Below, in pieces: positions 8,443-26,689 of a stretch of 64,000 bases of DNA; position 1 is the stretch's first letter; every line of letters begins with the position of its first letter. The DNA lies in contig NZ_JAMDHK010000002.1 in assembly GCF_024721115.1 (NCBI RefSeq), positions 124,001-188,000 on the forward strand. The letters are read 5' to 3'. Source of the DNA: Salipiger pentaromativorans (GTDB taxonomy: Bacteria; Pseudomonadota; Alphaproteobacteria; Rhodobacterales; Rhodobacteraceae). Position numbers and translations under genes: made by a program. Under the pieces are notes generated by a model, which searched no databases, had not been told where the DNA came from, and saw only the letters and a program-made list of their open reading frames with translations.

Positions 8443-8452
8443 GCCTTGCCCG

Positions 8453-8480
8453 CCCCGGCGCGCGGTCGCGCGCGCCGGGG
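8453..8480 (+). other. Intra-operon stem-loop
   Basis: CCCCGGCGCGCG (8453-8464) pairs with CGCGCGCCGGGG (8469-8480) around a 4-nt loop, between the binding-protein gene and the first ATPase. There is no strong T-tract. It probably stabilises or partly terminates the message so that the binding protein is made in excess. Confidence 0.6.
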
Positions 8481-8506
8481 ATTTCGCTATTTCCCGAAAG
8501 TCCGAA

Positions 8507-9492
8507 ATGCTGTTTTCCGCCGAAAACCTCTCGGTCGAGATCGACCGTCCCCTCCGCGATCCCGTGTCCCCGGTGCGCGGCGTGAGCTTCTCCCTCGATG
8601 CCGGCATGACGCTGGCGCTGGTGGGAGAATCCGGCTGCGGCAAGTCGATGACCTGCCTTGCCATCGCGGGGCTGCTGCCCAAGCGCGGCCGGATCTCCGG
8701 CGGGGCGCTGAAACTCGACGGGCAGGACCTTTGCGCGCTGCCCGAGAACGAGGCGCAGGCGCTGCGCCGCCGCCATCTGTCGAGCGTGTTTCAGGACGCC
8801 ACCGGCGGGCTGAACCCGGTGCGCAGCATCGGCTGGCAGGTGGCCGAGGCGGTGCGGCTGCGCAAGGGCGCCACGCGGCACGAGGCCCAGGCCGAGGCGG
8901 TGCGCCTGCTGGGCCGCGTCGGCCTGCCGGACCCGGAGCGCCGGGCGCGCGAATATCCGCATCAGTTCTCCGGCGGCATGAACCAGCGCGCCATGATCGC
9001 GCTCGCCATCGCAGGCAACCCGCGCCTGCTGATCGCCGACGAGGCGACCACGGCGCTGGACGTGACGCTTCAGGCGCAGATCCTCGACCTGATCGCCGAT
9101 CTGCGCAGCAGCCTCGGCATGGGGGTGATCTTTGTCACCCACGATCTTGGCCTTGTCGCCCAGACCGCCGACCGCGTGGCGGTGATGTATGCGGGGCGCA
9201 TCGCTGAACGCGCCGATGTGGCCGATCTTTTTGCCGCGCCGCGCCACCCCTACGCCCACGGGCTGCTGTCCTCGCTGCCCGAGCGGCAGGCGCAGGGCGG
9301 GCGGCTCGCCACCATCCCCGGCACCGTGCCGCCCATCGACGCGTTGCCCGGCGGCTGCGCCTTTGCGCCGCGCTGCCCGCGCGTCAGCGACCGCTGCGGG
9401 CAGGAGATGCCCGAACTGGCGCTTGGTGCCGCTTGCCATCATCCGCTGCCGCCCGGCCGCGCCGCCGCGACGATCCGCGAAAGAGAGTTCTC

Positions 9493-9496
<4 letters not shown>
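8507..9496 (+). CDS. ABC transporter ATPase (DppD/OppD-like)
   Basis: A 329-residue ATPase. Walker A is GESGCGKS (40-47), the signature is FSGGMNQR (154-161) and Walker B is LLIADEATTALD (174-185). A C-terminal cysteine-bearing oligopeptide-type extension (CAFAPRCPRVSDRC) is present, as in DppD/OppD proteins. It energises the family-5 importer with the following ATPase, which it overlaps by 4 bp (ATGA). It lies on the cytosolic face of the membrane. Function as an importer subunit is secure; the substrate is not. Confidence 0.85.
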
Positions 9497-10448
<952 letters not shown>

Positions 10449-10452
<4 letters not shown>

Positions 10453-11378
10453 CCTGGATCCTGCTGAAACTGCTGCGCGCGCTGGTCACCATGGGGCTGG
10501 TGCTGACCTTTGTCTTCTTTGTGCTGCGCCTCTCGGGCGACCCGACGCTGGTGCTGCTGCCCGACGATGTGGATCAGGCGACGCGCGAGTTCTACCGCGC
10601 CAAATGGGGGCTCGATGCGCCGCTCTGGGAGCAGTACACCAGCTATCTGCGCGCGCTGTTGCAGGGCGATTTCGGCATCTCCTTCCGCAACAATATCGAC
10701 GCCTTTCAGGTGGTCTGGGACCGGGTGCCCAAGACCGCGCTGCTGGGCGGCACCGCCATCGCCATCGCGCTGCTGATCGGCATGCCGCTGGGGGTGCTGG
10801 CGGCGGTCTACCGCGACAGCTGGCTCGACCGCACCGTCATGAGCATCGCCGTCTTCGGCTTTTCCATGCCGAATTTCTTCCTCGGCATCCTGCTCATCCT
10901 GATCTTTTCGCTGAAGCTGCGGGTGCTGCCCTCGTCCGGCTCGGGCACCTGGGCGCATCTCATCATGCCCGCCGCGACGCTCGGCACCGGCTTTGCCGCG
11001 CAGATCGCCCGCTATACGCGGTCGTCGATGATCGACGTGCTGTCGAAACCCTATATGCGCACCGCGCGGTCCAAGGGCGCGGGGCTGACGCGGCGGGTGA
11101 GCCAACACGCGCTGCCCAACGCCTCGGTGCCGGTGGTGACGATCCTCGGCATCAAGGTGGGCGAGATGCTGGGCTGGGCGGTGGTGACCGAGACGGTCTT
11201 TGCCTGGCCGGGCATCGGGCGGCTGCTGACCAGCGCCGTGGCCTCGCGCGATCTGGCGGTGGTGCAATGCATCATGATCCTGCTCGCCTTCACCATGGTG
11301 GCGGCGAATATGGTGGTGGATCTGGTCTATGGCTGGCTTGACCCGAGGGTCCGCGTCGGCGCGAGGGCACAGGCATGA
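10449..11378 (+). CDS. ABC transporter permease (DppB-like)
   Basis: A 309-residue inner-membrane permease with about six hydrophobic segments. The BPD_transp_1 EAA loop appears around YMRTARSKGAGLTRRVSQHALPNA, matching DppB/OppB proteins in length and layout. Its N terminus carries the typical first helix and a periplasmic loop (WGLDAPLWEQYTSYL). It overlaps its neighbours by 4 bp on both sides and forms the translocation channel with the next gene. Confidence 0.85.
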
Positions 11379-12262
11379 GCGCGCTCGACCGTCCCGCGCT
11401 GCCCGCCCGCCGCTGGGTCTGGCTGGCCACGCTGTCGCGCCTGCCGGTGATGGTGAGCGTGGCGGCGGGCTTCATGCTGCTGATGCTCTTCGTCACCGTC
11501 TTCGCGCAGGTGATCCAGCCCTATGCCTTCGACCATGTGGACCTGATGAACCGCATGACCCCGCCGGTGCCGTTGGCAGGCGCCACATGGGCGCATCCCA
11601 TGGGCACCGACACGCTGGGCCGCGATCTTTTCTCGCGGCTGCTGGTGGCGGCGCAGACCTCCATGCTGCTGTCGATCCTCGGCACCTGCCTTGGCGCCGT
11701 GATGGGGATCGCGCTGGGCTTTCTTGCCGCCCACAAGGGCGGGCTCTGGGACGAGGTCATCATGGCGCTGGTGGATTTTCAGGCCGCCATGCCCTGGTTC
11801 ATCATCGCGCTCGCCATCCTTGCCTTCATGGGCAATTCCATGGCGGTCTTCATCGCCATCATGGGGCTTTACGGCTGGGAGACCTATGCCCGCATCACCC
11901 GTGGCCTCGTGCTGAGCGCGCGCGAGCAGGGCTATGCGCTGGCGGTGCGCGGGCTCGGCGCGAAACCGCGCCGGGTCTACCTGCATCACATTCTGCCCAA
12001 TATCGCCGGGCCGCTGATCGTGCAGCTCACGATCAACTTCCCCAACACCATCCTGTTCGAGACCTCGCTGAGCTTTCTCGGCCTCGGCATCCGCCCGCCG
12101 ATGACCTCGCTCGGCCAGATGCTGGGGGAGGGGCGCGACTACCTGATCAACGCATGGTGGCTCGCGGTCATCCCCGGACTGGTGATCTTTCTCACAACGC
12201 TCAGCATGTCCGTCCTCGGCGACTGGCTGCGCGTGAAACTCGACCCCTCGCTGGAGACCTGA
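11375..12262 (+). CDS. ABC transporter permease (DppC-like)
   Basis: A 295-residue permease. The DppC/OppC hallmark HPMGTDTLGRDLFSRL lies near residues 70-85. The EAA loop is EQGYALAVRGLGAKPRRVYLHHILPN and the C-terminal GLGIRPPMTSLGQML follows it. About six membrane segments are visible. It is coupled to the upstream permease by a 4-bp overlap and followed after 3 bp by the isomerase gene, so importer and enzymes are one transcript. Confidence 0.85.
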   Translation: MSALDRPALPARRWVWLATLSRLPVMVSVAAGFMLLMLFVTVFAQVIQPYAFDHVDLMNRMTPPVPLAGATWAHPMGTDTLGRDLFSRLLVAAQTSMLLSILGTCLGAVMGIALGFLAAHKGGLWDEVIMALVDFQAAMPWFIIALAILAFMGNSMAVFIAIMGLYGWETYARITRGLVLSAREQGYALAVRGLGAKPRRVYLHHILPNIAGPLIVQLTINFPNTILFETSLSFLGLGIRPPMTSLGQMLGEGRDYLINAWWLAVIPGLVIFLTTLSMSVLGDWLRVKLDPSLET

Positions 12263-12265
12263 CCC

Positions 12266-13228
12266 ATGACCCAATCCGATACCCTCGTCCGCGAGGACAC
12301 AGCCGCCACCGGCACCATCGTCGCCACCGGCTTCAACACCGGCGCCGAGAGCGATCTGAGCAAGCTCGACGCGCGGCTGGCGCATATGGCCGAGATCGGC
12401 TGCACCGGCGCCGAGATCACCGCCACCGGGCTTGACGCCGTGGTGTCCTGCCGCCTGCTGTCCGACCGCGTGGCGCAGATCCGCGAGATCATGGCGCGCT
12501 ATCCGCTCAGCTATTCCATGCACGCGCCCATCGCCATCAACCTGATGGACGAGGCGCATGGCGACCTGATGCAGAAGGCCGCAACGGTCTCCATGGAACT
12601 GGCCGCCGAGATCGGCGCGGGCGCGGTGGTCATCCATCCCGGCCGTTGCCATCCGGCGGATTGGGAGGCGCGGTCGACCACGCTTTTGGCGCAGGAGCTG
12701 GAGCGCCTGCACCCCGTCGCCGACCGCGCGGCAGAGCTGGGCGTGGCCATCGCCTATGAGAATATCTCGCCCAACCGCCGGGTGATCGACGGGCTCGAGA
12801 CCTCCTATTCGCTCGACCCGCGCCAGCTTGGCGCGCAGCTTGCCGCGCTCGATCACAAGGCGGTCTTTGCCTGCCTCGACATCAGCCACGCCCAGCAGGG
12901 CGCGGTGCTTTGGGGCTTCGACATGATCGAGGCCTGCGCGGCGCTGTCGCCCTGGATCGGGCATATCCATTATTCCGACAGCACCGGCCTGCCGGCGAGC
13001 TTTCCCTGGACGCAGGAGGGCGAGAAGCATTTCCTCGGCGCCGGCGACATGCACGCGCCCAAGGGCTTTGGGTCGGTGGATTTCGAGGCGCTGGCCGCGC
13101 GGCTCACGGTGCGCCCGGGCACGCGCATCGTCATCGAGATCAAACGGAATTTTCACAACCACGCGGAACGGGCGACCTTGCTTGCGGCCCAGGATTTCGC
13201 GCGGCGCGTCAATGGAGCTGCGGCATGA
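12266..13228 (+). CDS. Sugar phosphate isomerase/epimerase-like TIM-barrel protein
   Basis: A 320-residue cytosolic protein of the AP-endonuclease-2/xylose-isomerase-like TIM-barrel family. Visible metal-site motifs are VVIHPGR, AYENIS, ACLDISHAQQ and GHIHYSDS, ending in VIEIKRN. The family isomerises or epimerises sugars, sugar phosphates and related polyols with a divalent metal. It sits directly after the importer permeases and overlaps the phosphodiesterase ATG by 4 bp. It probably processes the sugar or polyol moiety released from the imported compound. The exact reaction cannot be read from the sequence. Confidence 0.75.
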   Translation: MTQSDTLVREDTAATGTIVATGFNTGAESDLSKLDARLAHMAEIGCTGAEITATGLDAVVSCRLLSDRVAQIREIMARYPLSYSMHAPIAINLMDEAHGDLMQKAATVSMELAAEIGAGAVVIHPGRCHPADWEARSTTLLAQELERLHPVADRAAELGVAIAYENISPNRRVIDGLETSYSLDPRQLGAQLAALDHKAVFACLDISHAQQGAVLWGFDMIEACAALSPWIGHIHYSDSTGLPASFPWTQEGEKHFLGAGDMHAPKGFGSVDFEALAARLTVRPGTRIVIEIKRNFHNHAERATLLAAQDFARRVNGAAA

Positions 13229-14676
13229 CCACACATATCGACAAGGCGGTTGTCGTCGTTTTCGACGGGCTGCGCCCGGATCTCATCGACGATGCCATGC
13301 CCAACCTGCGCGCCTTTGCCGACGAGAGCCTGCGCTTTACCAATGCGCGCTCTGTCTTTCCGTCGCTCACGCGGGTCTGCACCACGAGCCTTGCCACCGG
13401 GAGCTGGCCGGAGCGCCACGGCATCGTCGGCAACGCCTTTCACATGCCCGAGGTGGTGCCGGGCCGGCCGCTCGATACCTCGGATTTCACCCATCTCGCG
13501 CGGATGCGCGAAGTGCTGGGCGAGATCGTCACGACCGACAGTCTGGGACAGGCGCTGGCCCGCGCGGGCAAACGCATGGCGACGGTGCATGCGGGCTCGC
13601 CCGGGTCGGCCTTTCTGGTGAACCATGACGCGGCGCGCAACGGGCATTGGACCTTTTCCGTGCATGGCGCCGACAAGACCCAGACGCCCGAGGCGGTGGA
13701 GCGTGCCATCGCCGCCTGCGGCCCTCTGCCGGGGGGAGAGATCCCGAAGGTGGACGCGGTGGCCTATGCGGGCCGCGTGATGCGTGAGCTGGCCATCGCG
13801 CAGGACCGCGCCGATGTCGCCTGGCTCTGGCTGCCCGAGCCCGACACCTCGTTCCACTACCGCGAGATCGGCTCGGAAGCGAGCCGCGAGGCGCGCCGGG
13901 CCGCCGATCTGGTCTTTGGCGAGATCGTCCACCAGATCCGCAGCGGGCCGGAATCCGAGCGCACCGCAATTGTCGCGCTGTCGGATCACGGTCAGATCTC
14001 GACGGTGGAAGAGATCGACCTCGGCGCCGATCTGACTGCCGCCGGGCTCAGCGCCAGTTCGCGCCCCGGAGCAGAGACGAAATTCGCCATGACCGACGGC
14101 GCGGCGGGTGAGCTGCGTGCGCTCGACGGCGATCCGGGCCTTCTGCGGGCGGCGGTTTCCTTTCTTCGGGAACATCCGAAGGTTGCTGCGGTCTTTGCCC
14201 GCGATGCGCTCTGCGACGAGCTGCCGGGCGCGTTGCCGCAATCGCTGGTGCGCCACGGTCATGCCCGCCAGCCGGATCTGTTCTATGTGATGCGCTCGGA
14301 CGAGGCGCCCGACGCCTACGGCATTACAGGCCGCAGGGCTTACACCGGCGGCGTGCCGCTGGGCGGTGGCATGCATGGCGGGCTCAACCGCCACGAGATG
14401 GCCACGACGATGATCTGGCAGGTGCCGGGCGGCCGCACCGGCCACGAGACGGCGCCGGCGGCGCTGGTCGATGTGGCGCCGACGCTGGCGGCGCTGATGG
14501 GGCTTGCGCTCTCCGCCGATGGCCGTGCGCTGCCGCTGATGGCGGCAGAGACCGAAGCAGCACGGGTTCTGGAAACGCCGGGGCAGGGCGGCGATGGCGC
14601 GTTTGTGCTGCGCCGGATGGCGCAGGGCGGGCGGATCTACCTCGATTGTCTCGAAGCGGCGGGCGATGCCCGCTAA
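13225..14676 (+). CDS. Alkaline phosphatase superfamily phosphodiesterase (NPP-like)
   Basis: A 483-residue protein of the type I phosphodiesterase/nucleotide pyrophosphatase family. Likely metal ligands and nucleophile are Asp14 (VFDGLRPDL), Thr49 in VFPSLTRV, the PEPDTSFHY motif, ALSDHGQ and a late GLNRHEM His. The motif SWPERHGIVGN matches NPP proteins. The family cleaves phosphodiester or, in phosphonoacetate hydrolase, C-P bonds. No signal peptide is seen, so it acts in the cytosol after import. It is the last gene of the importer operon, 111 bp before phnF. A diester of phosphate or phosphonate is the likely substrate class. Confidence 0.75.
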   Translation: MTTHIDKAVVVVFDGLRPDLIDDAMPNLRAFADESLRFTNARSVFPSLTRVCTTSLATGSWPERHGIVGNAFHMPEVVPGRPLDTSDFTHLARMREVLGEIVTTDSLGQALARAGKRMATVHAGSPGSAFLVNHDAARNGHWTFSVHGADKTQTPEAVERAIAACGPLPGGEIPKVDAVAYAGRVMRELAIAQDRADVAWLWLPEPDTSFHYREIGSEASREARRAADLVFGEIVHQIRSGPESERTAIVALSDHGQISTVEEIDLGADLTAAGLSASSRPGAETKFAMTDGAAGELRALDGDPGLLRAAVSFLREHPKVAAVFARDALCDELPGALPQSLVRHGHARQPDLFYVMRSDEAPDAYGITGRRAYTGGVPLGGGMHGGLNRHEMATTMIWQVPGGRTGHETAPAALVDVAPTLAALMGLALSADGRALPLMAAETEAARVLETPGQGGDGAFVLRRMAQGGRIYLDCLEAAGDAR

Positions 14677-14709: not shown

Positions 14710-14738
14710 CTGTCATCGCCGCGTCACGCCCCCGTCAT
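14710..14738 (+). promoter_or_regulatory. Triple Pho box upstream of phnF
   Basis: CTGTCAT (14710), GCGTCAC (14721) and CCGTCAT (14732) are spaced exactly 11 bp apart, the arrangement bound by PhoB under phosphate starvation. This is the best Pho box in the window and lies 50-78 bp before phnF. Confidence 0.75.
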
Positions 14739-14756
14739 GCGGAGCCGCCACTGGTC

Positions 14757-14775
14757 AAATCATCCGAATGAATTT
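14757..14775. promoter_or_regulatory. Candidate phn operator (site B)
   Basis: AAATCATCCGAATGAATTT is a near-palindrome, 19 bp downstream of the Pho boxes and 12 bp before the phnF start. It shares its core with sites A, C and D. Its position suits repression, probably by PhnF itself. Confidence 0.6.
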
Positions 14776-14787
14776 GCGGGAAGAGTG

Positions 14788-15507
14788 ATGGCGAAATCGG
14801 GCAATTGGGAACGCGCGCGCGACTGGATCACCCGGAACATCGAAAGCGAGGCGCTGGCGGACGGCGATCGCCTGCCGACCGAGGGGGATATCCAGCGTCT
14901 GACCGGCGTCGGGCGCCACTCGGTGCGCCGCGCCGTCGCGATGCTGGCCGCCGAAGGGGTGCTGAGCGTCGAGCAGGGGCGCGGCACCTTCGTGCGCGCC
15001 AAGCCGCCGATCCTCTACCGCATCGGCGCGCGCACCCGGTTCCGCGAAAACCTGATGTCGCAGGGGGTGACCCCCTCGGGCGACGCGATCGCCGCCGGCA
15101 TCGTGCCGGCCTCGGCCGAGGTGGCGCAGGCGCTGGGGCTTGCCCCCGGCGCGCAGGTGCACCGTGTGCTGCGCCGCAACCGCGCGGATGGCCGGCCGAT
15201 CAGCCTGGCCCGCGCCTTTCACGACGCCGCGCGCTTCCCCGACCTCGGCGCGCGGCGACAGCAGGGGATCTCGGTCACCGATATCTATCGCGATTACGGG
15301 ATCCCCGAATATCACCGGCTGGAAACCAGCTTTTACGCCCGCCTGCCCGATGGCTGGGAAGCGCGCGAGCTGGAACAGTCGGCAGAGCAACCGGTCATCG
15401 TCATGTGCAAGACCGACATCGACGAGGCCCGCCGCCCCATCGGCTTTTCCGAGTCGATCTGGTCCGCCGGACGGGTGCGGTTTTCGCTGGAGCCCGATCA
15501 TGACTGA
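14788..15507 (+). CDS. phnF: PhnF, GntR/UTRA family regulator of phosphonate use
   Basis: A 239-residue GntR-family regulator. An N-terminal winged helix (LPTEGDIQRLTGVGRHSVRRAVAML, with EQGRGTFV at the wing) is followed by a UTRA ligand-binding domain from about residue 90. The start MAKSGNWERA was chosen because GGGAAGAG precedes it and upstream codons would run through the operator. It heads the C-P lyase operon and overlaps phnG by 8 bp. PhnF proteins repress phn genes; the near-palindrome just upstream is the likely autoregulatory site. Confidence 0.88.
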   Translation: MAKSGNWERARDWITRNIESEALADGDRLPTEGDIQRLTGVGRHSVRRAVAMLAAEGVLSVEQGRGTFVRAKPPILYRIGARTRFRENLMSQGVTPSGDAIAAGIVPASAEVAQALGLAPGAQVHRVLRRNRADGRPISLARAFHDAARFPDLGARRQQGISVTDIYRDYGIPEYHRLETSFYARLPDGWEARELEQSAEQPVIVMCKTDIDEARRPIGFSESIWSAGRVRFSLEPDHD

Positions 15508-15937
15508 GACCGTGTCCCCCCTCGCGCCCTCGGAGCGGCTGTCCGTGCTGGCGCGCATGACCCCGGCGCGGCTTGCCGCCGAGGCCGAGGCGCTGCTGCC
15601 CGAGCTGGGCGAGATCGAGGTGCTGCAAAGCCGCAGCGGGCTGGTCATGCTGCCGATGCGGGACACGGTGATGGGCACCGATTTCCATCTCGGCGAGGTG
15701 CTGGTGAGCGAGGCGCATATCCGGCTGCCCGGCGGGGTGCAGGGCTATGGGATGATCACCGGCCACGATCTGGAACGCGCCATGGCCATGGCGGTGATCG
15801 ACGCGGGGTTTGCGGCGGGGATCGGCGGCGCGCGCCTGCCCGCGGCGGTTGCGGAAGAGGCCGCGCGTCAGGCCGCCGAGGACCGCGAGACCCTGCGCGA
15901 GATCGAGGCCACCCGCGTCAATATGGAGACCTTCTGA
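15500..15937 (+). CDS. phnG: PhnG, C-P lyase core complex subunit
   Basis: A 145-residue protein with PhnG features: a helical N terminus (RLSVLARM), then LPMRDTVMGTDFHLGEVLVSEAHI and GYGMITGHDLERAMAMAVIDA. PhnG joins PhnH, PhnI and PhnJ in the core complex that makes ribose 1-phosphonate 5-triphosphate from MgATP and phosphonate. It overlaps phnF at its start and phnH by 1 bp (TGATG). Confidence 0.9.
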   Translation: MTETVSPLAPSERLSVLARMTPARLAAEAEALLPELGEIEVLQSRSGLVMLPMRDTVMGTDFHLGEVLVSEAHIRLPGGVQGYGMITGHDLERAMAMAVIDAGFAAGIGGARLPAAVAEEAARQAAEDRETLREIEATRVNMETF

Positions 15938-16479
15938 TGCAGAGCGCCCCGCAACCGGATGCCAGAGAGATCCGGGACAATGCCAGCTTTCACGCGCTGA
16001 TGATGGCGCTGTCCCGTCCCGGCGAGGTCCAGACCCTGCCGGAGGCCGGGTTTGCGCCGCTGGCGCAGGCTCTGCTCGACCGGGAATGCCGGGTCTTTGC
16101 CGATGACGACGCGCTTGTCCCGGTGCTGCGCGCCACCGGCGCGGCACTGGTGCCGCTGGCCGAGGCCGATCACCTGTTTGTCGCGCTCGACAGCGCGGCG
16201 GCGGTGCGGGCGCTGGCGGGGGCGGCGGTGGGGTCGTTCCTCTATCCCGATCAGGGGGCGACGGTGATCGCACCGGCGCAGATCGGCGTCGGCCCGGCGC
16301 TGACCCTGACCGGGCCCGGCATCGAGGGCCGCCGCACATTGCGGCTGGGCGGCGTCGATCCGGCGCTGTGGGAGGCGCGGCGGCGGCTCTGCCGCTATCC
16401 CGAAGGCGTCGATCTGTTTTTTGTGGACGGCCGGCAGATCGTGGGGCTGCCGCGCTCTACTGCGGTCGCGGAGGGCTGA
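15937..16479 (+). CDS. phnH: PhnH, C-P lyase core complex subunit
   Basis: A 180-residue protein matching PhnH, somewhat shorter than the 194-residue E. coli protein. The N-terminal FHALMMALSRPGEVQ and the late GIEGRRTLRLGGVDP and YPEGVDLFFVDG segments are conserved features. PhnH is required for triphosphate transfer to phosphonate and binds the GIJ complex. It lies between phnG (1-bp overlap) and phnI (3-bp gap). Confidence 0.9.
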   Translation: MQSAPQPDAREIRDNASFHALMMALSRPGEVQTLPEAGFAPLAQALLDRECRVFADDDALVPVLRATGAALVPLAEADHLFVALDSAAAVRALAGAAVGSFLYPDQGATVIAPAQIGVGPALTLTGPGIEGRRTLRLGGVDPALWEARRRLCRYPEGVDLFFVDGRQIVGLPRSTAVAEG

Positions 16480-16482
16480 GCG

Positions 16483-17538
16483 ATGGCTTATGTGGCAACC
16501 CGTGGTGGCGAACGCGCCATCGAACAGGCCGAGCGGCTTTACCGCGCGCAGATGGGCGAGATCACGCCCGCGCGCGTGGCCGAGATCGAGCGCGCCCTGC
16601 CGCACCTGATCGACCGGGTGATGGGCGAGGCCTCGCTTTATGCCCCCGATCTGGCGGCGCTGGCACTGGCGCAGTCGGGGGGCGATCTTTACGAGGCGCT
16701 GCTGCTGCTGCGCGCCTGGCGCAGCACCCAGCCGCGGTTGCAGACCGCCGCGCCGGTGACGCAGGAGGTGACGCTGACCCACCGCCGCATCTCGGCGGCG
16801 TTCAAAGATATTCCCGGCGGTCAGATCCTCGGGCCGACGCTGGATTACAGCCACCGGCTGCTGGCGACCGAGGTGCTCGAGGGCGCGCGCTTTGTGCCGG
16901 CGCCTGTCGAGAAGGCGGCGCGCCCCGCGCCCGCCTGCCACCCGTCGCTGGCCGACTGGCAAAAGGCGCAGGGGCTGGTCGAGGCACCCGCGCTGGCGCC
17001 GGTCGCGCGCGACGCGATCCCCGATCTCACCAAAGAGCCGCTGCTCTTCCCCGCCAAGCGCGCCCATACGCTGCAAAGCCTGGCTCGCGCCGATACCGGC
17101 GGGATGCTGGCGCTCGGATATTCGGCCATGCGCGGCTATGGCAACGCGCATCCCACGGTGAACGAGCTGCGGCTGTCGGAGGCCGAGGTGATCGTGCGCC
17201 ATCCGGACGGCACGGAGTTCAGCGCCGGACGGGTGAAGACCAGCCAGGCCGAGGTGGTGACGACGAAGGGCGAGGGCAAGCTGCGGCTGGGCTTTTGCGC
17301 TACGCTGGGTTGGAACGAGGTCAAGACCATCGCGGGCGCCACGCTGGACCTGAACGCGCCGGGCGCGCCCAAGGGCTCGCCGGTGAACGAGGAGTTCTTC
17401 CTCTATCACACCGAGCCGGTCGAAAGCTCGGGCTTCTGCATCCACTTCAAACTGCCGCATTACGTGACCTTCCAATCCTCGCTCGACGCGCTGCGCGATG
17501 CGAAGAAACGGCGCGAGACGACGGAGGAACCGGCATGA
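16483..17538 (+). CDS. phnI: PhnI, C-P lyase core complex nucleosidase subunit
   Basis: A 351-residue PhnI. The N terminus YVATRGGERAIEQAE and the central ISAAFKDIPGGQILGPTLDYSHRLL are conserved. The C-terminal FCIHFKLPHYVTFQ keeps the two histidines (H321, H326) that correspond to the metal-binding pair at the PhnI/PhnJ interface of E. coli. PhnI displaces adenine from ATP so that phosphonate is attached to ribose C1. Its stop overlaps the phnJ start (ATGA). Retention of these residues contrasts with the loss seen in PhnJ. Confidence 0.92.
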   Translation: MAYVATRGGERAIEQAERLYRAQMGEITPARVAEIERALPHLIDRVMGEASLYAPDLAALALAQSGGDLYEALLLLRAWRSTQPRLQTAAPVTQEVTLTHRRISAAFKDIPGGQILGPTLDYSHRLLATEVLEGARFVPAPVEKAARPAPACHPSLADWQKAQGLVEAPALAPVARDAIPDLTKEPLLFPAKRAHTLQSLARADTGGMLALGYSAMRGYGNAHPTVNELRLSEAEVIVRHPDGTEFSAGRVKTSQAEVVTTKGEGKLRLGFCATLGWNEVKTIAGATLDLNAPGAPKGSPVNEEFFLYHTEPVESSGFCIHFKLPHYVTFQSSLDALRDAKKRRETTEEPA

Positions 17539-18434
17539 GCCTCGACACGCTCACACGGCCCTGGAAGGCGTTTTCCTACGGCTTTCTGGATGCGTCTGCC
17601 AAACGCGAAATGCGCCGCAAGATCCTCAAAGCTATCGCGGTTCCGGGCTGCCAGATGCCCTATGCCAGCCGCGAGGTGCCGATTGCGCGCGGCTGGGGCA
17701 CCGGGGGCTTGCAGGCCACGCTGACGCTGGTCCATCCGGGCTCGGTCGTCAAGGTGATCGACCAGGGCGCAGACGACAGCGTCAATGCCGCCTCGATCCG
17801 GCGCTTCATCGCGCGGGTCTCGGGCGCGGCGACCACGCTGGATACGCTGGAGGCGACGATCCTCCAGTCGCGCCACCGGGTGCCCGAGGAAAAGCTGCGC
17901 TCCGATCAGGTGCTGGTCTTGCAGGTGCCCAATCCCGAGCCGCTGCGCCCGGTGGAGCCCAATATGTCCGTCGCGCGCCAGATGCATGCGGATGCGGATT
18001 ACGGGCGGATGTGGTTGCAGCTTTACGAACAGATCGTGCGCTCGGGCCGGGTGATGCAGGGCGCGTCCTACCCCTCGCTGGTGAACGGGCGCCATGTGAT
18101 GACGCCCTCGCCGATCCCGCGCTGGGACGTACCCAAGCTGAACATGGCGGAGCATCTGACAATTCTCTCGGCGGGGCGGGAAAAGCGGCTCTTTGCGGTG
18201 CCGCCCTTCACCCGGGTGGAGCCCCTGGTCTTCGACGATGTGCCCTACCGGGTCGAGGAGCACGGCGCGCTGAGCTGTCATCGCTCGGGCGCGCTGGGGT
18301 TCTTCATGAACGAGATCCCGCAGGAGGACGGCACGGCGCGATACGAGATCTCGGACAGCCAGCTCGGGGTCAAGCATCTGGACGGTGAGGCACCGGGCGA
18401 GACCTGGTATCGGGACGGGGAGTTTGCGACATGA
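17535..18434 (+). CDS. phnJ: PhnJ, C-P lyase catalytic subunit homolog lacking canonical Fe-S cysteines
   Basis: A 299-residue PhnJ (E. coli: 281). Conserved blocks are KAIAVPGCQMPYASRE with the glycyl-radical position Gly38, GWGTGG, KVIDQGADD, SRHRVPE, PSPIPRW and GREKRLFAVPPFT. E. coli PhnJ carries CX2CX21CX5C near its end, binding the [4Fe-4S] cluster and providing the catalytic thiol. Here the matching segment reads LSCHRSGALGFF then YEISDSQLG. At best Cys248 remains, with Ser251 or Arg250, Ile272 and Gly278 at the other three positions. The protein has only two cysteines (39 and 248). The frame is intact, with no sign of frameshift. It overlaps phnI and phnK by 4 bp. Confidence 0.85.
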   Translation: MSLDTLTRPWKAFSYGFLDASAKREMRRKILKAIAVPGCQMPYASREVPIARGWGTGGLQATLTLVHPGSVVKVIDQGADDSVNAASIRRFIARVSGAATTLDTLEATILQSRHRVPEEKLRSDQVLVLQVPNPEPLRPVEPNMSVARQMHADADYGRMWLQLYEQIVRSGRVMQGASYPSLVNGRHVMTPSPIPRWDVPKLNMAEHLTILSAGREKRLFAVPPFTRVEPLVFDDVPYRVEEHGALSCHRSGALGFFMNEIPQEDGTARYEISDSQLGVKHLDGEAPGETWYRDGEFAT

Positions 18435-19228
18435 CCCTGCTGCGAGAGGCGCCCCGGCTGGTTCAGGCACAGCCTTTGCTGCGCATGGAGCGGGTGCACA
18501 AGCGCTATGGCGATGTGGTGGCGCTCGAGGATGTCTCGGCCGAGGTCTATCCCGGCGAGGTGCTGGGCATCGTTGGCGAAAGCGGCTCGGGGAAATCGAC
18601 GCTGCTGCGGATGATGAATCTCGAGGATCTGCCGGATGCGGGCCATTACCGGCTCGACCTGCCGGGGGTGCCGGAGGATCTGTTCACGCTCGACGGCTAT
18701 GCGCGGCGCATGCTGCGCGCGCATCATATCGGCATCGTCTATCAGAACCCGCATCTCGGGCTGCTGATGAAGAACTCCTCCTCGGGCAATGTCGCCGAAC
18801 GGCTGCTGATCGCCGGTGAGCGGCGGTTTGCGGTGCTGCGGGACAAGGCGCGCGATGCGCTCGCGGCCTCGGAATTCCCGCTCGACCGGATGGATGCGCC
18901 GCCCGTCGAACTGTCGGGCGGGATGCAGCAGCGGGTGCAGCTTGCCAAGGCGATCGCGCTGGAGCCGGCGGTGCTGCTGCTCGACGAACCGACCACCGGG
19001 CTCGACGTGAGCGTGCAGGCGCTGGTGCTGGACACGCTGAAACGTCTGCAACGCGAGCGGCGGATCACCATGGTGATCGTCAGCCACGATCTTGGGGTGA
19101 TCCGCACCATGGCCGACCGGGTCATCGTCATGCGCCGGGGGCTGGTGGTCGAGGCCGGGCTGGTCGATCAGGTCTTTCAGGACCCGCAGGCGGCCTACAC
19201 CCAGGCGCTTGTCCATGCCAAGCTGTGA
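18431..19228 (+). CDS. phnK: PhnK, C-P lyase-associated ABC-type ATPase
   Basis: A 265-residue ABC-fold ATPase. Walker A is GESGSGKST (near residue 55), the signature LSGGMQQR and Walker B LLLDEPTTGLD. The insert ARRMLRAHHIGIVYQNPHLGLLMKNSSSGN is typical of PhnK. PhnK docks on the PhnGHIJ core rather than on membrane permeases. It overlaps phnJ by 4 bp and is followed by a 123-bp spacer with two hairpins before phnL. Confidence 0.9.
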   Translation: MTLLREAPRLVQAQPLLRMERVHKRYGDVVALEDVSAEVYPGEVLGIVGESGSGKSTLLRMMNLEDLPDAGHYRLDLPGVPEDLFTLDGYARRMLRAHHIGIVYQNPHLGLLMKNSSSGNVAERLLIAGERRFAVLRDKARDALAASEFPLDRMDAPPVELSGGMQQRVQLAKAIALEPAVLLLDEPTTGLDVSVQALVLDTLKRLQRERRITMVIVSHDLGVIRTMADRVIVMRRGLVVEAGLVDQVFQDPQAAYTQALVHAKL

Positions 19229-19262: not shown

Positions 19263-19308
19263 GCAAATTCCTTCGAAGGAATTTGCAAGAGTTTTCGAAA
19301 ACTCTTGC
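19263..19308. repeat. Tandem double-hairpin intergenic repeat (copy 1)
   Basis: Two adjacent perfect palindromes: 24 bp at 19263-19286 (arm GCAAATTCCTTC) and 24 bp at 19285-19308 (arm GCAAGAGTTTTC), sharing a GC at the junction. They lie between phnK and phnL. The same architecture occurs at 31335-31380 and 40131-40190. As RNA they would form two stem-loops that could modulate phnL expression. Confidence 0.75.
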
Positions 19309-19351
19309 CCGCCCGGCCCGAACCTTGCCGCGAAACCGGAGGACGCCGGAA

Positions 19352-20045
<694 letters not shown>

Positions 20046-20059
<14 letters not shown>

Positions 20060-21215
20060 CTTTCGCATCGTCCTGCACGACCGGGTGATCGATGGCGGCG
20101 CGCTGCGCCTGGAAGACGGCAAGATCGCCGAGCTGTCCGAGACCCCGGTGCCCGGTGCCGCGCTGCAGGGCGATGGGCTGCTGCTGATGCCCGGCTTCGT
20201 CGATATGCATGGCGACATGATCGAGCGCGAGGTGGAGCCCCGCCCCAATGTCCGGATGCCGATGGAGCTGGGGCTGCGCGATCTCGACCGCCGGTTGAAG
20301 GTTGCGGGCGTGACCACCGGCTATGCCGCCGTCAGCTTCAACCCGAAATCCGCCTATGGTCATCTGCGCAGCTACGAGCATTCCAAGGCCATGCTGCGCG
20401 CGCTCAAGGGCATGCGCCAGACGCTCAAGGTGGATCACCGGGTGCATGCGCGGTTCGAGGTGAACTACCCCGGCGCGCTGGAGGTGATCGAGGAGTTGAT
20501 CGCCGAGGGCACCGTCGATCTGGTCTCGCTCACCGATCACACGCCGGGGCAGGGCCAGTACCGCGATCTCGAGCGGCTCAAGGCGCGCACCGCCGCCGAG
20601 CGCGGGCTCTCCGCCGAGGAAGCCGCGCAGGCGGTGCAGGAGCGCATCGACGAGAAGCGCCGCAATGTCGGCGATCTGGCGGCGACTCTTGGCGCGATCT
20701 CGGGGCTTTGCAGGCGCCATGGCATCGCGGTGGCCAGCCATGACGACGACACCGCCGAGAAGGTGGCGCTGATGGTGTCGCTGGGCGCGGCGATCAGCGA
20801 GTTTCCGGTGACCGAAGAGGCCGCGCGCGCGGCGCGGGCGGCGGGGCTGATGACGGCGATGGGCGCGCCCAACGCGCTGCGCGGGGAAAGCTATTCCGGC
20901 AATCTCTCGGCGCGCGCCGCCCATGCGGCGGGGCTGCTGGACATTCTCGCTGCCGATTACCATCCCTCGGCGATCCTGCCGGCGGTGCTGGTGCTGGCGC
21001 GGCAGGATCCCGAAGGGCTTGCGGGGGCGGCGCGGCTCGCCACCGCCAATCCGGCGCGGGCGCTGGGGCTTGGCGACCGGGGCGAGATCGCCCCGGGCAA
21101 GCGCGCCGATCTGGTGATCGCCGACGACGAGGGGGTGGGCCATGTGCGCGCCACCTTCCGCGCCGGGCGTAAGGTGTTCTCGGACGGCTCTCTGCGGCTG
21201 CGGGAGGTGGCGTGA
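20046..21215 (+). CDS. phnM: PhnM, ribose 1-phosphonate 5-triphosphate diphosphatase
   Basis: A 389-residue amidohydrolase-superfamily enzyme. Metal-site motifs are FVDMHGDMIERE, SLTDHTPGQGQY, VASHDDDTAEK and LAADYHPSAIL, as in PhnM. It removes pyrophosphate from alpha-D-ribose 1-methylphosphonate 5-triphosphate to give the 5-phosphate substrate of PhnJ. It is the last clear gene of the C-P lyase operon. phnN and phnP, which usually complete the pathway, are not seen in the window. Confidence 0.9.
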
Positions 21216-21538: not shown

Positions 21539-22318
21539 TCAGCGCCGGCGGGTCCACTTCACGGTGGTTTCCCACTCGAGGGTGAAGCGGCCCGTGGCAC
21601 CTTGCGCGTCGCAGATGGCACGCAGATCGGCGATCACCTGTCCCAGCCCGATCCGGCGCACCAGCGACCAGACGGTCGAGCGGGTCAGATAGAGGTCGAT
21701 GAGCCCCTGGCAATCGGTCTCCTGCTGCCAGCCGAAGGTGCGCGACTTGCCCGAGCGGAAGGTTTCGAGCGCGCCCAGATCGCGCACCGAGGGTTCCTTG
21801 GTCTTCTCGCGCGCCTGGAAATCTCCGAACTCGATGGAATGCTCGGCGACATAGGCGTCGAACGCCGCCACCAGCGGCGAGCCGACACGGCGGTTGCGCA
21901 GCATGGCCAGCACGCCGCCCGGGGCAAGCACCCGCGCGGCCTCGGCGAAAAACGCCGTGCGGTCGAACCAGTGATAGGCGGTGCAGGCGACGATGAGCCC
22001 GGCGGAGCCATCGGGCAGGGGCAGGGCCTCGGCGGCGCCGTCATCGACCTGCACGCGCGGTTCCTCGCGGAAACTGCGGGCCAGCACACGGCGCATGTCG
22101 CGGCCCGGCTCCACCGCCATGACCAGCCAGTCCTGCGGCAGCGCCAGGCGCAGCGCCCGGGTGGAATTGCCCGGCCCGGCCCCCACATCGACCGCGATGC
22201 GCGCGGGGCAATCGACCTGATCGGCAAGCGCGGCAAAGGCCGCCACCGGATAGCCGGGCCGGTAGAGCGCATAGGTCTCGGCCAGCCCTTCGAAGCGATC
22301 GGCGGCTTCGGGCCTCAC
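21539..22318 (-). CDS. Class I SAM-dependent methyltransferase
   Basis: A 259-residue protein of the Methyltransf_11 type. Motif I is AVDVGAGPGNSTR (near residue 42), motif II includes VDDGAAEALPLPDGS, and VLAPGGVLAMLRNR follows. The N-terminal AETYALYRPGYP is common in small-molecule methyltransferases. Its ATG overlaps the stop of the PhnM-like gene (ATGA), placing it in the same phn-regulated transcript. The substrate is unknown. A role tied to phosphonate metabolism is inference from co-transcription only. Confidence 0.75.
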   Translation of the reverse strand: MRPEAADRFEGLAETYALYRPGYPVAAFAALADQVDCPARIAVDVGAGPGNSTRALRLALPQDWLVMAVEPGRDMRRVLARSFREEPRVQVDDGAAEALPLPDGSAGLIVACTAYHWFDRTAFFAEAARVLAPGGVLAMLRNRRVGSPLVAAFDAYVAEHSIEFGDFQAREKTKEPSVRDLGALETFRSGKSRTFGWQQETDCQGLIDLYLTRSTVWSLVRRIGLGQVIADLRAICDAQGATGRFTLEWETTVKWTRRR

Positions 22319-23529
22319 AGCCCGAAGCCCCGCGCGGCATGGGCGATCCGCCCGGCGCTCAGCGTCAGCACCGGGGCAGGGGCGCCGCCCTCGGGCCAGT
22401 CGATCAGCACCAGATCGGCGCGCTTGCCCGGCGCGATCTCGCCCCGGTCGGTAAGGCCCGAGGCCCGCGCCGGGTTGGTGCTGATGGTCTTCCAGAGCGC
22501 GTGCAGCGGCGCGCGGTTCTCGGCCCGCATCTGCGCCACCGCCCCCAGCATCGCCGGATAGTAGTAATCGGAGGCAAGGATGTCGCAGAGCCCCCGGCTC
22601 ACCATATCCGCCGCCGAGGGCGAGCCGATATGGCTGCCGCCGCGCACCACATTGGGGGCGCCGAAGACGATCCAGTCGCCCGCGCCACGCGCCGCCAGCG
22701 CCACCCGGTCGTTCATCGGGAACTCGCTGATCCGGGCGCCGTGGCCGCGGTAGAAATCGCGGGTCTCGATCTGGGTGTCGTCATGGCTGAGCATCGGCGC
22801 CGCATGCGCCCGCGCCCGCGTCCCCACCGAGGCGATGGCCCCGGCCACCTGCGGGCGGCGCTCCCACATCTCGCCCAGCAGCCGTATATAGGCCCTCGCG
22901 TCGATGCCCGAGCGCGCGGCGCGCTTTTCGAACTTGCCCGTCGCGGCGGTGCGCGCAAGATCAATGGCGGGGTAATCCGCGACCAGATCGAAGGGCCGTT
23001 CCTGCAAGGGGATCGCCGGATCGAGCATCGCCATCGAGGTGTGGTCGTTGAAGGCGACCGAAGGTGTCTGCGCCCCCGCCAGAGCGCGCTCGATAAGCGG
23101 CTGCGCCTCGAAGCAGAAGGTCTCCCAGCGCAGTTGCAGCCGGTTCTCCACCGCCAGCCGGGGCTCCAGCGCCGCCAGCCGGTCGAGAATGCGGGTGCCG
23201 TGCTCGACCGAGCGCAGCCCCGGCTCCCAGGACAGGGTCAGCGCGTGATAGGCGGTGGCGATGCCGTTGGCGGCAAGCTGGCGGTCGGTTTCCAGCAGCG
23301 CCACATCGAGCGGGAAGAACACGTTGGGGCGCGGCATGAGCTGACGCTCGAAGGCATCGCCGTGGATGTCCACCAGCGCGGGCGCGAGGATCAGCCCGCG
23401 CGCATCGACCCGCTTTGCGCCATCGACCGCCCCGTCGAGCCCGGTGATGTGGCCATTCTCGACCCGCACCGAGACCGTCTCGATGCCATCCGGCAGGATC
23501 ACCTCGGCGCCTTCGAACATCACTGCCAT
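22315..23529 (-). CDS. Second PhnM-like amidohydrolase
   Basis: A 404-residue protein, start MAVMFEGAEV with AAGGAA about 10 nt upstream. Motifs parallel PhnM: LVDIHGDAFERQ, VAFNDHTSM, MLSHDDTQIE and LASDYYYPAML, followed by STNPARASGLTDRGEIAPGKRADLVL. It is probably a phosphonate-linked diphosphatase or hydrolase paralogous to the phnM at 20046. It reads away from phnC and carries an operator-like box and Pho-box-like repeats upstream, so it belongs to the same regulon. The substrate difference from PhnM is not evident. Confidence 0.75.
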   Translation of the reverse strand: MAVMFEGAEVILPDGIETVSVRVENGHITGLDGAVDGAKRVDARGLILAPALVDIHGDAFERQLMPRPNVFFPLDVALLETDRQLAANGIATAYHALTLSWEPGLRSVEHGTRILDRLAALEPRLAVENRLQLRWETFCFEAQPLIERALAGAQTPSVAFNDHTSMAMLDPAIPLQERPFDLVADYPAIDLARTAATGKFEKRAARSGIDARAYIRLLGEMWERRPQVAGAIASVGTRARAHAAPMLSHDDTQIETRDFYRGHGARISEFPMNDRVALAARGAGDWIVFGAPNVVRGGSHIGSPSAADMVSRGLCDILASDYYYPAMLGAVAQMRAENRAPLHALWKTISTNPARASGLTDRGEIAPGKRADLVLIDWPEGGAPAPVLTLSAGRIAHAARGFGL

Positions 23530-23864: not shown

Positions 23865-23901
23865 CCGAAGCCGTCATGAGAGGCGGCAAGGATGCGGCCT
23901 C

Positions 23902-24717
<816 letters not shown>

Positions 24718-24763: not shown

Positions 24764-25681
24764 ATGAAACTCTTTACCACCGCCGCTCTGCTGGCGCTCG
24801 TCGCCGCGCCCGCTCTGGCCGAAGGCTGGAAAGACGACTATCAGGTCGTCAAATTCGGCATCCTCTCGGGCGAGAACGAGAAAGACCGCCTGATGCGCAA
24901 CGAACCGCTGCGCACCTATCTGGAAAACGAGCTGGGCGTGAAGGTCGAGATCTTCACCGCCGGCAATTATGATGGCGTCGTGCAGGCGCTGGCCGCCGAC
25001 CAGATCGAGATCGCGCGCTTCGGCTCCTCTTCCTATGCCGCGGCCTATACCGCGACCGAAGGCGGCGTGCGTCCGATCCTGACCACCGTCAAGAAGAACG
25101 GCAACACCGGCTACAACTCCATCGTCGTGACCCGCTGCGACAGCGGCATCAAGAACCTCGACGACGCCAAGGGCAAGGTGCATGCCTTCGCCGATCCCGA
25201 CAGCACCTCGGGCTACGCCGTGCCCTTCTTCAACATGAAGGAAAAGCTGGGCATCGACCCCGCCAGCTATTTCTCGGCCATCCCCTTCTCGGGGTCGCAT
25301 GAAGCCGGTGTGCAGGGCGTCGTGAACGGCACCTTCGACACCGCCTCGACCTATCAGAACAACGACGTCGATGGCATCCCGCAGCGCATGGTCGCCAAGG
25401 GCATGATCGAGGACGGCGTGGTCTGCACCATCTGGGAAAGCCCCGAAATCACCTCCGGCCCCTGGACCGTCCGCAACAACCTGCCCGAAGAGATGGTCAA
25501 CGACATCGCCGTCGCGCTGGAGAATTTCGCCGAGAAGGATCCCGAAGGCTTCAAGCTGGTGACCTCCTTCGATCCGACCGACGAGAACCCCGACACCGAT
25601 TACATCCGCGTCGATCACGACCGCTATCAGTGGATCGTGGACATGCGTCAGTGGATCAAGGAACAGCGCCGCGGCTCGTAA
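24764..25681 (+). CDS. phnD: PhnD, phosphonate-binding periplasmic protein
   Basis: A 305-residue binding protein with a Sec signal peptide, residues 1-19 (KLFTTAALLALVAAPALA). PhnD features are FGILSGENEKDR, the ligand-loop region ARFGSSSYAAAYT, ADPDSTSGYAVPFF and SGSHEAGVQGVVNG. It captures phosphonates in the periplasm for PhnCEE. A clear attenuator-type hairpin follows it, consistent with higher expression than the permeases. Confidence 0.92.
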   Translation: MKLFTTAALLALVAAPALAEGWKDDYQVVKFGILSGENEKDRLMRNEPLRTYLENELGVKVEIFTAGNYDGVVQALAADQIEIARFGSSSYAAAYTATEGGVRPILTTVKKNGNTGYNSIVVTRCDSGIKNLDDAKGKVHAFADPDSTSGYAVPFFNMKEKLGIDPASYFSAIPFSGSHEAGVQGVVNGTFDTASTYQNNDVDGIPQRMVAKGMIEDGVVCTIWESPEITSGPWTVRNNLPEEMVNDIAVALENFAEKDPEGFKLVTSFDPTDENPDTDYIRVDHDRYQWIVDMRQWIKEQRRGS

Positions 25682-25744: not shown

Positions 25745-26689
25745 ATGAGCGATGTTGCGGAGCTGACGGCCTATCCGCCGGTGAGCGGGCCAAGCGCGAT
25801 CAGCGTCTTCGAGCGCGAATTCGCCGCCAAACGCAAGGCGGCGCGGATCAACTGGGCGCTTGGCACGGCAGTGTTTCTGGCAATCTTCGCCATCACCGCC
25901 TGGCTGGGCGATTTCTTCAAGGTCACGCAGGTGACGCTGCCGGACGGCTCGCGCGACTGGCGCTGGATCATCCCGGCCGGCATCCCGCGGCTTGGCGAAT
26001 ATATCGAAAAGACCCTGCCGGTGCTGCGCTGGGAAAGCCTGGGTGCGGATCTGGCGGAATGGTTCTGGCGCTGGAAGATCTGGCTGCGGCTGCTGGTGGA
26101 AACCATCCTCATCGCCTTCATGGCCACGACGCTGGGGGTGATCGGCGGCTTTATCCTCAGCTTTCCCGCGTCGCGCAACCTTGCGCCCAACCGCTGGGTG
26201 CTGTGGATCTGCCGCCGCTACCTCGAGATCGCCCGCACCGTGCCCGAGCTGGTCTGGGCGCTGATCTTCGTCTTCTGCTTTTCGGTGGGGCCCCTGGCGG
26301 GCGTGATGGCCGTGGGGCTGCACGCCACCGGCGCGCTCGGCAAGCTCTATTCCGAGGTCAACGAGAACATCGACATGCGTCCGCTCGAAGGCGTGAAGGC
26401 GGCGGGCGGCACGTGGTTCGACCAGATCCGTTACGGCGCGGTGCCGCAGGTGCTGCCCAATATCATCAGCTACACGCTGCTGCGCTTCGAGATCAACGTC
26501 CGCTCCTCCTCGATCATCGGCTATGTCGGCGCGGGCGGGCTGGGGCAGGAGTTCCGCACCGCGATGAGCTTTCAGGAATATACCGATCTTTCGGCGCTTT
26601 TCGTCATCATCTTCCTGACCGTGGTCGTGATCGACTTCGGCTCGGAGAAGCTGCGCCACCGGATCATCGGGCTGGAGGACCGGGCATGA
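25745..26689 (+). CDS. phnE: PhnE, phosphonate ABC importer permease
   Basis: A 314-residue permease with about six membrane helices. PhnE motifs are FMATTLGVIGGFILSFPASRN, LEIARTVPELVWALIFVF and KLYSEVNENIDMRPLEGVKAAGG, with the EAA-type loop near PQVLPNIISYTLLRFEINVRSS. It is the first of two paralogous permeases and overlaps the second by 4 bp. GAGGGGG just before the ATG is a good ribosome site. Confidence 0.9.
   Translation: MSDVAELTAYPPVSGPSAISVFEREFAAKRKAARINWALGTAVFLAIFAITAWLGDFFKVTQVTLPDGSRDWRWIIPAGIPRLGEYIEKTLPVLRWESLGADLAEWFWRWKIWLRLLVETILIAFMATTLGVIGGFILSFPASRNLAPNRWVLWICRRYLEIARTVPELVWALIFVFCFSVGPLAGVMAVGLHATGALGKLYSEVNENIDMRPLEGVKAAGGTWFDQIRYGAVPQVLPNIISYTLLRFEINVRSSSIIGYVGAGGLGQEFRTAMSFQEYTDLSALFVIIFLTVVVIDFGSEKLRHRIIGLEDRA

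Follow-up and report, generated by a model that had tools for sequence, protein, structure and literature searches.

A clade of cysteine-poor PhnJ proteins and a possible non-radical route of phosphorus release in C-P-lyase-like operons

A phn operon of Salipiger pentaromativorans, found in a 64,000-nucleotide stretch of its genome (the window), codes for an intact PhnJ in which the signature CX2CX21CX5C, comprising the ligands of the [4Fe-4S] cluster and a thiol, is reduced to one cysteine of four. Proteins with the same pattern occur in phnGHIJKLM operons of Rhodobacterales and Hyphomicrobiales and on plasmids of Thermus, and form a single clade. We tentatively propose, at somewhat less than an even chance, that these operons specify a second, probably Pho-regulated, C-P-lyase-like system, which would ribosylate its substrate and, with no recourse to radical SAM chemistry, release phosphorus as a cyclic ribose phosphate.

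The window operon and the cysteine columns of its PhnJ

The window carries the gene run phnF-G-H-I-J-K-L-M on the forward strand, with the full phnGHIJKLM core (Table 1). The phnJ product falls well within PF06007 and is matched by E. coli PhnJ with an E-value of 1.8e-81 over residues 12-274 (phmmer). The first-pass annotation had given the E. coli motif correctly: the K-12 sequence has its cysteines at C241, C244, C266 and C272, that is, CX2CX21CX5C. Re-alignment places C248, R250, S251, I272 and G278 of the window protein in the E. coli columns C241, I243, C244, C266 and C272, as had been noted before, and leaves just two cysteines in the whole polypeptide, C39 and C248. Hence, the motif is indeed missing from an intact 299-residue PhnJ, the alignment keeping one of four cysteines, in the C241 column.

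Table 1. Features of the phn region in the window, with positions counted from its first nucleotide
Feature	Position	Strand	Basis or remark
Pho-box-like 11-bp direct repeats, CTGTCAT-CGCC-GCGTCAC-GCCC-CCGTCAT	14710..14738	+	coordinates counted from sequence
phnF regulator	14737..15507	+	TIGR02325, 176.3 bits, over cut-off
phnG, start approximate	15503..15937	+	PF06754, 85.6 bits
phnH	15937..16479	+	TIGR03292, 112.5 bits, over cut-off
phnI, with zinc-site histidines H321 and H326 (H328 and H333 in E. coli)	16483..17538	+	PF05861, 352.3 bits
phnJ, cysteine-poor type, 299 aa	17535..18434	+	PF06007, 383.8 bits against a cut-off of 25
C-x-R-S remnant of the CX2C motif, C248 to S251	18276..18287	+	coordinates counted from reading frame
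phnK, Walker A/B, signature and H-loop motifs	18431..19228	+	best NCBIfam match TIGR02323, under cut-off
phnL, Walker A/B and signature motifs	19283..20059	+	best NCBIfam match TIGR02324, under cut-off
phnM	20025..21215	+	TIGR02318, 429 bits against a cut-off of 390.55
Second PhnM-like amidohydrolase	22315..23508	-	NF011987, 353.1 bits, over cut-off
phnC, phosphonate-type ABC ATPase, start approximate	23890..24717	+	74% identity to annotated phnC, Haematobacter massiliensis plasmid (L063)
phnD, phosphonate-type binding protein	24764..25681	+	62-68% identity to L063 counterpart
phnE permease	25745..26689	+	70% identity to an annotated L063 phnE

The earlier description of the remaining subunits (PhnG, PhnH, PhnI, PhnK, PhnL and PhnM) as normal holds roughly, and both PhnI histidines are present as claimed. 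It does not hold for PhnK and PhnL, which fall below the NCBI equivalog cut-offs (213.7 bits against 302.85 for TIGR02323 and 225.5 against 256.3 for TIGR02324), although these are still their best-scoring families and the Walker and signature motifs are intact. The counterpart of phnD on the Haematobacter plasmid sits in an unannotated gap between phnC and phnE. A class I methyltransferase gene (21539-22318, reverse strand) adjoins the second PhnM-like gene and has homologues in six of 81 related loci; homologues of the PhnM-like gene itself lie near 22 of the 81 cysteine-poor loci of at least 14 kb.

Three imperfect 11-bp repeats stand 5' of phnF. The first ATG of that gene overlaps them, and the true start is probably further 3'. 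The window's own best Pho-box-like site has 3 mismatches of 14 to what we take to be the Pho-box consensus. Against the same consensus, the best sites close to the estimated phnF start average 3.29 mismatches of 14 in 83 loci versus 5.23 in 1660 random stretches from the same loci. Sites with at most three mismatches occur in 47 of the 83 loci versus 2.8% of the random stretches (Mann-Whitney p 6e-40, which overstates the case, the loci being related). This points to possible control of the cysteine-poor operon by phosphate starvation.

The same genome has a second, canonical PhnJ (G000:C11:261178-261990, in locus L156), which has all four cysteines, scores 474.6 bits versus 383.6 for the window protein, and is 45% identical to the latter. 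Its locus shares the core genes phnG-L and phnM with the window operon and additionally carries phnN and a DUF1045 gene; the window phn operon has no phnN of its own, the gene being found in the canonical locus instead. The E. coli C-P lyase (PhnGHIJKLM; structures 4xb6 and 7z15-7z19) has the same subunits in the same order, GHIJKLM, and a PhnJ that is 48% identical. The cysteine-poor type shares with it Gly32 and the zinc-site residues of PhnI and PhnJ, and is distinguished by the loss of C244, C266 and C272, the new residues R243, N252 and E265, an extended C-terminal tail and the low-scoring PhnK and PhnL.

A single clade with an invariant residue pattern

The alignment comprises 90 cysteine-poor rows (the window and 89 loci; 88 distinct over E. 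coli residues 8-272) and 26 other rows. Matches spanning fewer than 150 residues were left out, as were, for the tree, those under 240, exact duplicates and L049. When the four cysteine columns are scored, as had been suggested in the first-pass annotation, all 90 cysteine-poor rows retain C241 alone, whereas all 26 others have the complete set. The C244 column is occupied by S in 86 rows and T in four, the C266 column by V (54), L (25), I (9) or A (2), and the C272 column by G (85), A (3) or M (2). Around these positions, I243 is replaced by R, D252 by N and V265 by E in 90/90 rows, and D268 is retained throughout. In most of the alphaproteobacterial proteins, the C-terminus is further extended by a tail around GETWY. 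That the pattern is common to the whole clade agrees with the earlier judgment of substitution rather than frameshift. C39 was considered as a general replacement thiol and rejected, since it is a tyrosine in the rhizobial and Thermus rows.

In a tree built from 228 columns, with the cysteine region excluded, all 96 cysteine-poor PhnJ proteins, those of Thermus included, fall into one clade with support 1.0; its nearest canonical relatives are weakly placed. The PhnI partners likewise group together (90/90, support 0.988), and the simplest reading would be that the module changed once and then spread as a unit. Comparison of the window phnJ with five relatives yields dN/dS values of 0.08-0.17 (pairs from 0.034/0.438 to 0.206/1.213). 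The presence of R243, N252 and E265 in every row argues for a redesigned, putatively rebuilt pocket rather than decay.

The residues of the second metal centre tell a different story from those of the cluster. In E. coli, the zinc site lies between PhnI (H328 and H333, with H219 in the open state) and PhnJ, and 5-phosphoribosyl-1,2-cyclic phosphate is held there via PhnJ R107, H108, Q124 and the loop 47-50; this ligand was modelled in a complex made without phosphonate, and the authors ascribe it to a side reaction (PMC9947105, in the part of the text available). The same source (PMC9947105) calls the working of C-P lyase unresolved, with some 30 A between the Fe-S site and Gly32 and the zinc site lying elsewhere than the Fe-S site. 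PhnJ G47, W48, G49, T50, R107, H108 and Q124 are all conserved in 90/90 cysteine-poor rows, as is Gly32, the proposed radical site; PhnI H219 is present at 90/90 loci, and H328 and H333 at 89 with one gap. Judged by conservation, the centre that handles the ribosylated substrate is intact, and the one credited with making the radical is not. By losing the Fe-S cysteines but retaining both Gly32 and the zinc site, this natural clade uncouples the two centres and opens their roles to testing. A structure prediction was set aside, its mean pLDDT being 36.

Distribution, transfer and the company of a canonical copy

In a sample of the order, PhnJ is present in 247 of 390 genomes. Close relatives of the window PhnJ were sought in 24 of the 247—all 18 with at least two matches, two with odd scores (G344 and G057) and four controls. 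An intact one (about 80% identity or more) was found in 16 and a broken one in another (G090), which gives 16 of 247 PhnJ-bearing genomes with an intact cysteine-poor copy. A class-wide sample yielded PhnJ in 65 of 385 genomes and the low-scoring type in two, the window's own and one of the same family (G001); by this sample, the type is uncommon in the class. Further members come from plasmid records of Haematobacter, Nitratireductor, Rhizobium, Sinorhizobium, Mesorhizobium, Microvirga and Thermus thermophilus, pVV8 of strain HB8 among them. A scan of genome contigs recovered at least 80 loci with 76-93% identity, some of them from the same genomes as the order-sample relatives; Salipiger abyssi is closest among the matches listed. 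The literature searched, as far as its text was accessible, makes no mention of a cysteine-poor PhnJ; one is possible in Hove-Jensen 2014, the 2015 crystal structure, Kamat 2011/2013 and Ohtani 2012. The cysteine-poor copies are annotated 'alpha-D-ribose 1-methylphosphonate 5-phosphate C-P-lyase PhnJ', and surveys based on names would count them as methane producers though they lack the residues for making methane.

Of 88 cysteine-poor loci, all have phnH, phnI, phnK and phnL; for phnG and phnM the count is 86, and the gaps fall mostly on short contigs. The transporters vary. Most loci carry phnCDE (phnC in 70 of the 81 loci of at least 14 kb), and a PfkB kinase gene occurs in six, five of which have it beside a sugar-type ABC transporter 5' of phnG. 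These five are rhizobial (L075, L137, L140, L141 and L146), with a UgpB/UgpA-like transporter and the kinase before phnG; phnCDE was not found within these loci.

The clusters on Thermus thermophilus pVV8 (L067) and the SNM1-1 plasmid (L068) have a PhnJ of the same cysteine-poor clade, with about 62% identity to that of the window. They differ in having a LacI-type regulator before the operon in place of PhnF, and phosphonate transporter genes 5' of phnG. Plasmids of Proteus (L072) and Labrenzia (L073) carry incomplete C-P lyase operons, phnGHIJKL (L072 6004-10184 and L073 6011-10319, with no phnM annotated in the stretch seen). Their PhnJ, a third type, was ruled out as part of the cysteine-poor group, all four cysteines being kept; these clusters also differ in a LysR regulator and another ABC transporter. 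Among the cysteine-poor phn modules, that of the Haematobacter massiliensis plasmid is 99.9% identical to one of Paracoccus shanxieyensis over 19.3 kb and to one of Aureimonas altamirensis over 6.8 kb. Judged from the sequences, such near-identity across three genera (L063, L098 and L116) is recent transfer. Rhizobium sp. CG5 (G392, L079) has three PhnJ matches, two with scores of the cysteine-poor type (C51:17026 and C6:98430), the latter being classed by its score and not by its cysteine columns.

To follow the co-occurrence of the two types, 46 genomes were chosen from the contig-scan loci, most MAGs and uncultured bins being left out. Forty also hold a PhnJ at the canonical level (454-500 bits versus 370-396), and all four cysteines are present in the 20 canonical loci examined of these 40. 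The remaining six—Haematobacter massiliensis and H. missouriensis, and Devosia marina, D. sediminis, D. subaequoris and D. indica—have none, and G344 is a seventh genome with the cysteine-poor PhnJ alone. PhnN is the ribose 1,5-bisphosphokinase. All seven sole-copy genomes, which represent about three lineages and for one of which completeness is given, carry, no more than 9 kb from phnJ, a PhnN gene whose product passes the NCBI cut-off. Of the 143 PhnJ-less genomes in the order sample, the first 20 on the list were scored, and a PhnN passes the cut-off in one of them (Fisher p 9e-6). Where both PhnJ types are present (20 genomes), PhnN accompanies the canonical locus in 16 and the cysteine-poor locus in one; the corresponding counts for DUF1045 are 15 and one.

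DUF1045 has been described as a phosphodiesterase of the two-histidine kind, with a proposed role in opening the cyclic ribose phosphate (PMC8235418, in the part of the text available), and paired HxT motifs are seen in the DUF1045 proteins here (four shown). In the sole-copy genomes, it is encoded within 9.1 kb of phnJ in three of seven and on other contigs in four. The four Devosia sole-copy loci have the cysteine-poor core beside phnM, phnN and a DapH-like gene, three of them also with phnCDE. The same phnM/phnN/DapH-like/phnCDE set accompanies a canonical core in two other Devosia, as if the cysteine-poor core had replaced the canonical one. The operons of Mesorhizobium AR07 and Microvirga VF16 continue directly 3' of phnM with DUF1045 and phnN; the two Thermus loci have neither gene in 17-21 kb of sequence. 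No dedicated PhnP scored over the cut-off in any of 16 genomes tested; two-copy genomes are among them, so its absence says nothing special about the cysteine-poor system. The persistence of the enzyme that consumes the normal product beside a sole cysteine-poor system argues for phosphorus release, rather than ribosylation only, as its probable function.

A candidate heterolytic mechanism and its competitors

Ordinary C-P cleavage needs radicals, an alkyl group being a poor leaving group. Without the cysteines, the simplest reaction still open to the zinc site would be for the ribose 2'-OH to attack phosphorus directly. We envisage that PhnI, with PhnG, PhnH and PhnL, couples the phosphorus group of the substrate to the 1-position of the ribose of ATP, and that PhnM then trims the ribosylated compound to the 5-phosphate. 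Attack of the 2'-OH on phosphorus, at the zinc site between PhnI and PhnJ, would then displace the remainder of the substrate as an ordinary leaving group and yield 5-phosphoribosyl-1,2-cyclic phosphate, and neither a 5'-deoxyadenosyl nor a glycyl or thiyl radical would take part; the DUF1045 two-histidine cyclic phosphodiesterase and PhnN could convert this product to PRPP. The bond to phosphorus would break heterolytically, the leaving group departing with the electron pair as an alkoxide, an amine or a stabilised carbanion, the predicted substrates being phosphate esters, phosphoramidates or phosphonates whose carbon is electron-withdrawing, and probably not methylphosphonate. We know of no C-P lyase credited with a substrate class released in this manner. 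More speculative, and somewhat less probable, is the wider picture of a widespread, non-radical and perhaps oxygen-tolerant machine made from an entire C-P lyase, combining ATP-driven ribosylation with zinc-assisted 2'-OH attack on a new class of substrates. If true, this would suggest the PhnI-PhnJ zinc site as the cyclisation centre of all C-P lyases.

The first-pass annotation had offered three options, and different chemistry emerges as the best supported of them, given the intact zinc site, the Pho-box-like sites 5' of the operon and the PhnN gene beside it in sole-copy genomes. The union of the cysteine-poor proteins in one clade, the low dN/dS values and the invariance of R243, N252 and E265 also count in favour of heterolytic release. 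Several observations sit less comfortably with it: the operon in two-copy genomes almost never has its own PhnN (1/20), neither PhnN nor DUF1045 is seen in the 17-21 kb of the two Thermus loci, PhnN in the sole-copy genomes may be a relic of a lost canonical operon, the transporters differ among loci (phnCDE versus the sugar-type ABC with PfkB kinase), and Gly32 would not be needed by a radical-free enzyme. Its conservation, together with that of C241 and D268 and the new invariance of E265 and N252, could instead mean that the C-P bond is still cleaved by radicals, a cluster or redox site being held by C241 with E265, N252 or D268, or by a different metal. We regard this as improbable, because the catalytic thiol C272 has become G, A or M and C266 V, L, I or A in every row, with C39 giving way to tyrosine in the rhizobial and Thermus proteins; the option of other cluster ligands is likewise unlikely with one cysteine left.

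The third option, glycosylation only, fits less well, since PhnN would be without its usual substrate where the cysteine-poor PhnJ is the sole one. Here the substrate would be placed on ribose and trimmed by PhnM without cleavage, and the product passed to the canonical PhnJ or another hydrolase. The retention of all zinc-site residues and the usual absence of PhnN from the cysteine-poor operon are compatible with such a relay, as is the co-residence of a canonical-level PhnJ in 40/46 genomes, which exceeds chance in the order sample (15/16 versus 231/374, Fisher p 0.0075, every other PhnJ-bearing genome being counted as canonical). However, the seven genomes with no other PhnJ keep PhnN beside the operon, and retaining both ABC proteins along with PhnM and, in many cases, a transporter would be costly for a dead-end product; we consider it unlikely, though not negligible. 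The same co-residence might reflect a non-catalytic PhnJ that assembles with the canonical complex as a structural or regulatory partner, but the presence of a separate copy of the whole core operon rather than of phnJ alone, the separate PhnI clade and the sole-copy genomes make this very improbable. A sequencing error or decaying pseudogene has next to no probability and was ruled out: 88 distinct sequences share the pattern with dN/dS well below 1, and the window phnJ frame is open, with 4-bp overlaps with both phnI and phnK. That copies can decay is nevertheless seen in one relative, the broken phnJ of G090 (L049, G090:C2:4688-5505), whose genome keeps a canonical-like one; the broken copy aligns as C-S-I-C, the last C being an unreliable match.

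On the same strand 5' of the window operon, positions 6862-14676 code for a peptide-type ABC transporter (SBP_bac_5), an AP_endonuc_2 TIM barrel and a PF01663 phosphodiesterase. Reading the substrate from these genes was rejected: homologues lie near few of the 81 loci (SBP_bac_5 four, phosphodiesterase two, TIM barrel three), and among matched loci near one, none and one of 20 cysteine-poor versus none of 20 canonical ones. Some genes like these flank the operon in Mesorhizobium AR07 and Microvirga VF16.
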